DNA from: Saccharothrix australiensis
GTDB taxonomy: Bacteria > Actinomycetota > Actinomycetes > Mycobacteriales > Pseudonocardiaceae
Direction: 5' to 3'
Length of the DNA stretch: 64,000 nt
Assembly: GCF_003634935.1 (NCBI RefSeq)
Contig: NZ_RBXO01000001.1
Location: 248,001-312,000 of the forward strand
Part shown: in pieces, positions 53,342-55,283 of the stretch
Layout of the letters: every line of letters begins with the position of its first letter
Numbering within the stretch: the stretch's first letter is position 1
The notes under the pieces: generated by a model
Database searches by the model: none
What the model was told of the DNA's origin: nothing
What the model saw: the letters and a program-made list of their open reading frames with translations, nothing else
Translations under genes and position numbers: made by a program

Positions 53342-54634
53342 GTGACCAGTGCCGGGACGACCACGGCGAAGCACCACCTTGGTGTCCGGCGACTCCTCGC
53401 CACGGCGGACTTCCGCAGGCTGTTCGCCTCGCGGCTCGCGTCCCAGTGGGGCGACGGGCTGTTCCAGGCCGGGCTCGCCGGCGCGGTGCTGTTCAACCCG
53501 GAGCGCCACGCCGACCCGCTCGCCGTCGCGGCCGGGTTCGCCGTGCTGCTCCTGCCGTACTCCGTGGTGGGCCCGTTCGCGGGCGCGCTGCTCGACCGGT
53601 GGGACCGCCGCCGGGTGCTGGTCGTGGCGAACCTCGTGCGCGGCGTGTTCGTCCTGCTCACCGCCGCCGCCGTCGGGCTCGGCCTGGACGGCGTGCCGCT
53701 GTACGCGGCGGCGCTGTTCGTCACGGGCGTGAGCCGGTTCGCGGGCTCGGGCCTGTCCGCGTCCCTGCCGCACGTCGTCGCGGAGGAGCACCTCGTGGAG
53801 GCGAACGCGTTCGTCACCACCCTCGGCGCGCTCATGGCGGTGTTCGGTGCGGGTTGCGCGGTGGCGCTGCGGCAGGTGTTCGGCGCGGGCGACGGCGGCT
53901 CGGCGTGGACCACGGCGGTCGCCGTCCTCGGCTCGCTGGCCGCGGGGTACCTGGCGTCCCGGTTCGCGCGTGGCGCGCTCGGGCCGGACGAGGTCGACGA
54001 GCCGAGGCGCACGGCCACCGCCGTGGCGCGCGGCCTGCTGGACGGCGGGCGGGCGGCGTGGCGGACGCCCAGCGTGGCCGCCGCGCTGCTGGCGCTGCTC
54101 GCGCACCGGGCCGCGTTCGGGGTGTCCCTGCTGCTCACGCTGCTGCTGATGCGCCACGCGTTCACCGACGTGGGCCCGCTGAAGGCGGGCATGGCCGGTC
54201 TCGGCGAGATCGCCGTCGCGGGCGGCGCGGGCATCCTGCTGGCGGGCCTGATCACGGACCGGATCGTGGACGTGCTCGGCCGCCGGGGGACGGTGTGCGG
54301 TGCGCTCGGCCTGGCCGCCGCGAGCCAGCTCGGGCTCGGCCTGCCGATGCTGCTGCCGACGACGCTGGCCGCGTCGTTCGTGCTGACGTTCGCGGGCCAG
54401 GTGATCAAGCTGTGCGTGGACGCGGCCGTGCAGAGCGACATCGGCGACGAGGTGCGCGGTCGGGTGTTCGCCCTCTACGACACGCTGTTCAACGCGACCC
54501 AGGTGGGCGCGGTGGCGGTGGCGGCGATGGTGGTCCCGCTGGACGGCCGCTCCCCGGCCCTGATCGTGGCGGCGACGGCGTCCTACGTGGTGGGCATCGT
54601 GGTGTTCGTGAACTGGCACCGGATCAGCAGGTAG
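53342..54634 (+). CDS. major facilitator superfamily transporter
   Basis: The 430-residue protein has 12 hydrophobic segments and the MFS motif A between helices 2 and 3 as GPFAGALLDRWDRRRVLVVA. The N-terminus FRRLFASRLASQWGDGLFQA is typical of the MFS_3/antiporter subgroup of actinobacteria. Substrate unknown; many relatives are macrolide or drug exporters. The start is GTG. Its stop lies 64 bases before the nested inverted-repeat element. Confidence 0.88.
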   Translation: MTSAGTTTAKHHLGVRRLLATADFRRLFASRLASQWGDGLFQAGLAGAVLFNPERHADPLAVAAGFAVLLLPYSVVGPFAGALLDRWDRRRVLVVANLVRGVFVLLTAAAVGLGLDGVPLYAAALFVTGVSRFAGSGLSASLPHVVAEEHLVEANAFVTTLGALMAVFGAGCAVALRQVFGAGDGGSAWTTAVAVLGSLAAGYLASRFARGALGPDEVDEPRRTATAVARGLLDGGRAAWRTPSVAAALLALLAHRAAFGVSLLLTLLLMRHAFTDVGPLKAGMAGLGEIAVAGGAGILLAGLITDRIVDVLGRRGTVCGALGLAAASQLGLGLPMLLPTTLAASFVLTFAGQVIKLCVDAAVQSDIGDEVRGRVFALYDTLFNATQVGAVAVAAMVVPLDGRSPALIVAATASYVVGIVVFVNWHRISR

Positions 54635-54697: not shown

Positions 54698-55030
54698 CTG
54701 TGTTTAATTGGCCTCGGCTTCGCCTCGGCGGCTCGGCCGCCTTTTAGTCGGCAGGTCGCGCCTGATTTTCCTGCGATCGAAAAGCGTGATCGCAGGAAAA
54801 TGAGGCACGACCTGCCGACGCGGCCTCGCGGTGCGGGAGCGGTGATGGCGTGAAGTGCCATGCGACCTGGTATCGGCTGGCCTACCTGCTCCCGCGCCGC
54901 GAGGCCGCGTCGGCCTGTCCCGCCTGATTTCTCGCCGATCACGCTTTTCGATCGGCGAGAAATCAGGCGGGATGGGCCGACTAAAAGGCGGCCGAGCCGC
55001 CGTCTGCGGAGCAGCGGCCATTAGACACAG
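54698..55030. repeat. nested inverted-repeat element able to form a giant four-way junction
   Basis: Four helices are stacked symmetrically. P1: 54727-54752 pairs with 54976-55001 (26 bp, perfect). P2: 54750-54778 pairs with 54788-54816 (29 bp, two mismatches) around loop GAAAAGCGT. P3: 54814-54840 pairs with 54888-54914 (27 bp, one T/G pair) around a 47-base loop. P4: 54912-54940 pairs with 54950-54978 (29 bp, two G/T pairs) around loop ACGCTTTTC. The left and right halves are also inverted copies of each other. Outer ends look like terminal repeats: CTGTGTTTAATTGGCC (54698) against the complement CTGTGTCTAATGGCC (ending 55030). No protein is encoded. It could be a MITE or REPIN-like mobile element, or a structured RNA gene. 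Confidence 0.85.
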
Positions 55031-55283
55031 GCACCGGCAGTCGGATCAGGCCCGTCTCGTGCGCGAACACCACCGCCGCCATCCGGTCGCGCAGGTTCAG
55101 CGTGCGCAGGATCTCGTCCACCACGGCGCCGACCTGGCGTTGGCTCACCGCGAGCACGCGCGCGATCTCGTGGTCCGCCAGGCCCCTCGCCAGGCACCGC
55201 AGCACGGCCCGCTGGTGGTCCGACAGCGCGGACAGGTCCTGCGCACGGGCGCTTCCCTCCGCGGACAATCCCCAAGCGTTCAT
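54981..55283 (-). CDS. small LuxR-type helix-turn-helix protein
   Basis: The 100-residue protein is essentially a LuxR/Nar[64 protein letters not shown]. No receiver or other sensor domain is present. The last 16 residues ([14 protein letters not shown]) and the TAG stop are encoded by the right arm of the nested inverted-repeat element, so the natural C-terminus has been altered or was always formed that way. An 8-3-8 palindrome lies just upstream. It follows pcnA in the same direction, 91 bases after that stop. Confidence 0.78.

Follow-up and report, generated by a model that had tools for sequence, protein, structure and literature searches.

The described systems closest to the element reported here are the enterobacterial repetitive intergenic consensus (ERIC) sequences, also known as RU-1, the REP/REPIN repeats associated with RAYT, the attC sites of integrons, and the MITEs of DDE insertion sequences. 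ERIC sequences are regarded as MITE-like, non-autonomous mobile sequences, and they can fuse to the 3′ ends of some enterobacterial genes, in which case the normal stop codon is lost and the protein is extended (PMC2759123). A cloverleaf fold has been proposed for a REP doublet (PMC3116915). The repeat family described below shares features with all four systems. Likened by description only, it has in common with ERIC (a 127-bp consensus) a length of about 127-132 nt, a long imperfect palindrome and many intergenic copies, the present units being of about 132 nt and their loop motif occurring at 142 sites. Like REP/REPIN, it consists of palindromic, intergenic, non-autonomous repeats that sometimes form inverted pairs or tandem arrays. 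With attC sites it shares a similar size range, head-to-tail arrays and a folded bottom strand, and with DDE MITEs the small size, non-autonomous nature, high copy number and intergenic location.

We analyzed a window of 64,000 nt from Saccharothrix australiensis (contig NZ_RBXO01000001.1, positions 248,001 to 312,000), in which an initial annotation had described a giant four-way junction between an MFS gene and a small LuxR-type gene. The locus is best read as part of a family of mobile hairpin repeats that behaves like ERIC and REP-type repeats and that we rate as new. The comparisons given below set it apart from the other systems: it is not REPIN because RAYT is absent and doublets are rare, not attC because of the arrangement of its core, and not a DDE MITE because of its ends and the lack of target duplication. 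It is best explained, and probably so, as a non-autonomous mobile hairpin repeat with a polar unit of about 132 nt that is moved in trans by a putative enzyme. No description of the family was found in a search limited to open-access literature, and the genome paper of S. espanaensis does not mention repeats. Rfam gave no match above the gathering score in the window and, at the locus itself, only sub-threshold hairpin matches, mostly to microRNA families.

Fold and composition of the locus

An inverted repeat with two side hairpins bearing 9-base loops had been described at this locus, and both were found as described: the arms at 54726-54840 and 54888-55002 are 84% complementary, and inside them lie two hairpins of 32 nt, whose 9-nt loops read GAAAAGCGT and ACGCTTTTC. 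The cloverleaf proposed for 54727-55001 is also the minimum-energy single-strand fold of these 275 nt, with -241.6 kcal/mol compared to a mean of -122.9 (sd 5.1; z -23.2) for 200 dinucleotide shuffles, none of which was as good. The equation of this four-way junction with the element itself has to be given up, as what is inserted, covarying and conserved is a single unit of about 132 bp. The outer limits had likewise been drawn too tightly, since the conserved unit starts at CTGTGTT, which extends the feature to 54698-55030. The features of the locus are as follows (handles such as G006 or L295 denote genomes and loci of the comparison).

54698-54829, + strand: left unit, a complete family member of about 132 nt (covariance-model match of 137 bits, E 1e-24; alignment)
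54899-55030, - strand: right unit, also a family member, independent of the left unit and lying tail to tail with it (covariance-model match of 146 bits, E 1e-26)
54698-54713, + strand: CTGTGTTTAATTGGCC, the fixed end of the left unit, common to nearly all copies, full or truncated
55015-55030, - strand: CTGTGTCTAATGGCC, the fixed end of the right unit, where the LuxR-type gene ends (junction CTGCCGGTGC/CTGTG, also in G006)
54747-54819, + strand: main hairpin of the left unit (94% complementary inverted repeat; covariation)
54779-54787, in the + strand unit: loop GAAAAGCGT of the left main hairpin
54909-54981, - strand: main hairpin of the right unit (94% complementary inverted repeat; covariation)
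54941-54949: loop ACGCTTTTC (+ strand letters) of the right main hairpin
54830-54898, no strand: tail-to-tail spacer, which holds the ATGGC/GCCAT loop of the initial annotation (comparison of 3′ flanks and of spacer sequences)
54981-55283, - strand: LuxR-type (GerE) ORF, with its last codons and stop in the right unit (PF00196, E 3e-9)
53342-54634, + strand: MFS transporter gene, the convergent neighbour (PF07690, E 3e-20), with its stop 63 nt before the left unit

The left and right units are 82% identical, and they rank only 28th and 51st of 92 as each other's relatives, so they are separate members of the family and do not derive from a recent duplication. The spacer consists of the joined, shortened tails of both units and lies outside the conserved unit. 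The four-way junction is thus an accident that arises where two independent units, each next to one member of a convergent gene pair, lie tail to tail. The inverted pair as a mobile unit is unsupported, the halves not being closest relatives.

Dispersal, architecture and folding strand of the family

If the window were seen alone, it would allow chance or a one-off inverted duplication without further meaning. However, the loop motif GATCnAAAAGCGTGATC, with up to two mismatches allowed, occurs at 142 sites in the S. australiensis genome (7.86 Mb), 70 and 72 of them on the two strands, whereas its reversed control occurs at none, and a similarity search of the same genome with the element gave at least 100 matches. 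Together with the ranks of the two halves, these sites rule out an origin by chance or by a single duplication, to which we attach practically no credence. The refuting condition named with the initial annotation, a lack of further copies and pairing due to one recent inverted duplication, clearly does not hold. The class suggested initially, a MITE, REPIN-like or structured element, is confirmed to the extent that the locus belongs to a dispersed structured repeat.

In the 1.13 Mb of DNA around the motif sites, 108 hairpin matches were detected, 107 of which were taken as units, in 81 clusters. All context statistics refer to this DNA around known units only and rely on a home-made, simple codon-usage gene caller. 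Most units are single or head to tail, with a spacing of 123-131 nt in arrays, while tail-to-tail pairs were seen in five of the 81 clusters and in one further pair (loci L004/L005), and head-to-head pairs in none of the 81. Next units are abutted by full units at 123-131 nt as well as by partial ones of about 13-20, 32-42, 62 and 75 nt. Nearly all partial units keep the TGTGTT end, and arrays are mostly homogeneous within one locus; truncations anchored at the fixed end and homogeneous arrays point to a process that starts at this end. Besides moving, copies may thus be amplified locally, in head-to-tail order starting at the fixed end, which would give full or truncated repeats. In some units the long hairpin is largely or completely missing while both ends are partly preserved, which looks like a deletion of the hairpin (L357 and L360 in G003 and G019, L167 in G007). 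When four inverted unit pairs lying 0.7-2.5 kb apart were inspected by eye as candidate autonomous elements, no transposase was recognised between them, only ordinary-looking genes such as that of a Crp-like regulator.

The unit starts with the fixed CTGTGTTnGATnGCC end. After it come, in this order, a small hairpin whose loop is TYC, the sequence CTCGGCCGCC, a TGGAA-like bulge on one side, GTCGG, the long hairpin, CCGAC and GCGGCCTCGC. The long hairpin, in which GATC closes the 9-nt loop, sits on an outer stem that carries the one-sided bulge. The fixed end is unpaired and the unit has polarity. The fixed end contains GTTGGAT, which fits the attC core GTTRRRY, but in attC this core would be expected where the folded stem begins, and here it lies elsewhere; the unit has only this one GTTRRRY-like end, which is unpaired, with no partner core at the other end, and no gene cassettes lie between the members of an array. 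Unlike a DDE MITE, the single unit has no terminal inverted repeat, as the CTGTGTT... and ...GCGGCCTCGC ends are not complementary, and inverted ends are found only in tail-to-tail pairs. Compared to REP/REPIN, the unit is about 132 nt long and not a short REP, and singles are the rule instead of inverted doublets. ERIC, again compared by description, is an enterobacterial family, whereas the units here belong to Pseudonocardiaceae; features of these units that ERIC may or may not share are a two-hairpin architecture, one fixed unpaired end, anchored truncated tandem copies and a bottom-strand G·U polarity.

Behind the non-fixed end, units of the window genome have a G-rich low-complexity tail, with a skew of 0.48 versus 0.00 in control intergenic DNA (interquartile range about +/-0.1; p 7e-24). 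It is weaker in relatives (median skew 0.22) and therefore lies outside the core unit. At 6714724, 1068444 and 2762594 (G000:C1, the window genome), the tails are composed of different simple repeats in each copy, such as GGAGCGGAGCGAGCA and GGGAACGCGTGT, which suggests that each tail originates on the spot, next to its hairpin. At a subset of units (G000:C1 384457, 614254, 617460, 1068444 and 1116456, among others), another short repeat of approximately GGGCGGGAGCGGTGAGACAGGGCGTAGAG stands immediately before the CTGTGTT end.

A covariance model built from the copies, which had been proposed along with the initial annotation, matches both units of the window, and its base pairs covary strongly. 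Among 39 diverse units, two-sided compensatory changes were observed in 25 of 44 pairs, and compensatory cells numbered 189, compared to 48 +/- 5 in shuffles and 13-27 when the partner was slid by 1-3 columns. When other genera were included in a bottom-strand alignment, two-sided changes were found in 32 of 41 pairs. Imperfect pairs reveal which strand is folded: in 165 distinct main hairpins, they are overwhelmingly A·C when read on the unit strand and hence G·U (or G·T) when read on its complement (341 versus 18). Since many of the 341 are inherited, the ratio obtained by counting once per position and context (90 versus 13) is the safer one. The complementary strand is also more stable as RNA in 139 of 164 hairpins, compared to 4 of 164 matched perfect hairpins, and, with units present in either strand of the chromosome, a replication-tied mutation bias should cancel. 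It is therefore the fold of the complementary (bottom) strand, with the 3′ end ...GGCAATCCAACACAG (...AACACAG), that is under constraint, and RNA and single-stranded DNA fit this alike.

Insertion sites and gene ends

The convergent MFS/LuxR gene pair is syntenic in all 25 Saccharothrix species, and occupied sites were compared with empty ones, as had been suggested for this locus. In 17 species the site is empty and the two genes are close together or overlapping; the other eight are occupied (two units in G000, the window genome; also G006, G011, G002, G017 and G001) or carry remnants without the long hairpin (G003 and G019). The insertion in G001 is clean, consisting of a single unit of 133 nt (AAGCG/CAGTGTTTGATGG...CTCGCG/GTCACCGCGG versus AAGCGGTCA[CG]CGCGG in relatives); nothing was deleted, and the target is not duplicated except perhaps for GCG. 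Units at this locus are in the + orientation in G001 and in the - orientation in the others, so the site has been hit more than once, while the identical LuxR/unit junction (CTGCCGGTGC/CTGTG) in G000 and G006 shows that inheritance also contributes. Further sites of the window genome are likewise empty in relatives. The comparison is one between species, with flanks about 80% identical, so that the mobility read from it may lie in the past; this counts against the mobile-repeat model. Around 5521104 (G000:C1; loci L185-L200), the window genome has a unit in place of an intrinsic-terminator-like hairpin that is conserved in relatives, where it lies 15-25 nt downstream of the stop codon.

A general target duplication was not found in 129 + 34 flank pairs, and the absence of a fixed-length duplication (at most GCG in G001) again distinguishes the family from DDE MITEs. 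The one case found is a unit in G010 (L295, the same locus as L059) that has a direct repeat of 51 nt on its two sides, made up of the 3′ end of the host gene. This repeat may go back either to a long duplication of the target or to a tandem duplication at an earlier time. In the proposed mechanism new copies would be inserted precisely, without target duplication, and this 51-nt repeat is left unexplained by such a model and counts against it.

The same repeat would agree with a SINE-like element, in which a bottom-strand RNA with the fixed 3′ end AACACAG would be reverse-transcribed at nicked gene ends, and 5′ truncations and tandem copies would result from stops at hairpins and from template jumps. 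The bottom-strand polarity is consistent with this alternative, as are the truncations, which keep the end matching the RNA 3′ end and several of which lie near hairpin bases, and the tandem junctions, which start exactly at that end. However, the G001 insertion is clean and without target duplication, tandem copies are mostly locus-specific with no mixture of templates, and no RVT_1 domain (PF00078) was detected in the window genome, which is the most copy-rich, or in G006, G001, G005 and G015. Although a diverged reverse transcriptase or a past source could still be compatible with this absence, we consider a SINE-like origin improbable.

With respect to neighbouring genes, 37 of the 81 clusters lie between convergent genes, compared to 103 of 478 intergenic gaps longer than 100 bp in the same DNA. 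Of 50 stop-facing cases at the fixed end, 21 have the facing stop codon between -13 and +7 nt, compared to only 1 of 51 at the other end, and the orientation of units towards the gene is biased only about two to one. The stop is often supplied by the unit itself (CTGTGTTTGA, CTGTGTCTAA or CTGAGTT). In the window, the C-terminal end of the LuxR-type protein is read from the right-hand unit, versus ...LPLPR in G001 and in relatives without an overlapping unit. The initial view that the element encodes no protein is therefore only partly right, as it fails for the LuxR-type ORF (54981-55283, - strand), whose last codons and stop come from that unit. The same response-regulator-like gene, as judged by eye, ends in ...AEL[IS][YF]R[AI]-stop inside a unit at L060 (G015), L064 (G021) and L262 (G024), where the unit either has been the end of this gene since a common ancestor or was gained repeatedly.

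In the mobile-repeat model that we favour, insertion would be tolerated best in the least harmful places, the 3′ ends of genes and above all the gaps between convergent genes, and harmlessness would then be the cause of the location bias. The fixed end would fall on the stop codon, and the unit could provide a stop or a short protein tail. A putative trans-acting enzyme would recognise the folded bottom strand at the AACACAG/CTGTGTT end and move the element, presumably as a folded single strand.

The position at gene ends may also be read in favour of the host. According to this alternative, the units are mainly a useful RNA: the bottom-strand transcript at the 3′ end of the far-side gene, a stretch rich in C and poor in G with very stable hairpins behind it, would end transcription or protect the mRNA and block read-through into the facing gene, with mobility being secondary or old. 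The G·U polarity fits RNA of the bottom strand, and the excess between convergent genes (37/81 versus 103/478 long gaps), the C-rich bottom strand of the tail (skew 0.48 versus 0.00, p 7e-24), the structure kept across genera and the terminator-like hairpin of relatives in place of the unit at 5521104 all point in the same direction. On the other hand, tails beside gene starts (skew 0.43 in the window genome) are no less G-rich than those beside gene ends, the tail is weak in relatives, and the orientation bias relative to the gene amounts to no more than about two to one. The site of the window is empty in 17 of 25 species and three species have no copies, so a host role would be dispensable at each site. 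A cis-acting RNA, either a terminator or a 3′ protection, fits most of the data and the empty sites speak against an essential role; as the main explanation we regard it as rather unlikely. Mobile element and cis-acting RNA may both apply at once.

Candidate enzymes, distribution and implications

Neither of the two enzyme types searched for was detected in the window genome, the most copy-rich one. The Y1 transposase domain PF01797 had no match in the window genome, G006, G010, G001 or G005; it is present in only 5 of the 25 Saccharothrix genomes and absent from most of the copy-rich ones. The absence of the Y1 transposase from most copy-rich genomes and of RVT_1 from several counts against the favoured model of movement in trans. 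It also refutes mobilization of REP/REPIN by a PF01797-type RAYT of the window genome. A REPIN origin, in which the inverted pair would be the mobile unit and RAYT, a Y1 HUH transposase, would move it, could account for a short palindromic intergenic repeat that is sometimes an inverted pair and for the cloverleaf-like fold of the pair, but the units are mostly single or head to tail, the six inverted pairs have unrelated halves, and the clean G001 insertion is a single unit, which makes this origin very improbable.

Within the genus, covariance-model matches vary greatly among the 25 species: the window genome has at least 136, the next three have 133, 99 and 82, and the others range from 46 down to 2, with none in G004, G012 and G014. 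Besides the window genome, G010, G013 and G019 are rich in copies. These counts are somewhat inflated by weak opposite-strand matches. Outside the genus, nine genomes from four other genera had matches (E down to 5e-16) among 120 genomes drawn from the family. Among 396 sampled genomes of the phylum, the exact loop motif turned up in no further one. The copies in other genera keep the CTGTGTT end, the small hairpin, the outer stem, the bulge and the GTCGG/CCGAC stem, while their long stem and loop are entirely different. At the individual loci (L366-L380, genera g8, g275, g277 and g300), the frame is kept and the long stems and loops are wholly different; these copies could serve to build a covariance model of the whole family. 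Many old copies have retained the structure, a hint that the host may benefit from it too, which counts against the mobile-repeat model.

Considering the mobile-repeat model as a whole, we tentatively suggest a more specific picture, in which the element might spread in a folded, single-stranded form, one end of which is recognised, via bottom-strand RNA or single-stranded DNA, by means of an enzyme that is neither Y1 nor RVT_1; it would have been kept across at least five genera with its stems and loops rewritten and its architecture unchanged, and would repeatedly have served as a ready-made gene end that combines a stop codon with a 3′ hairpin.

These results describe a large, old and strongly covarying family of interspersed repeats in actinomycetes, whose copy number ranges from none to more than 130 among the species of a single genus. 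The polarity tells which strand folds, and clean empty and occupied sites offer usable genetics. Two open questions thereby become testable, namely how short palindromic repeats spread without RAYT and whether mobile repeats serve bacterial genes as ready-made 3′ ends.
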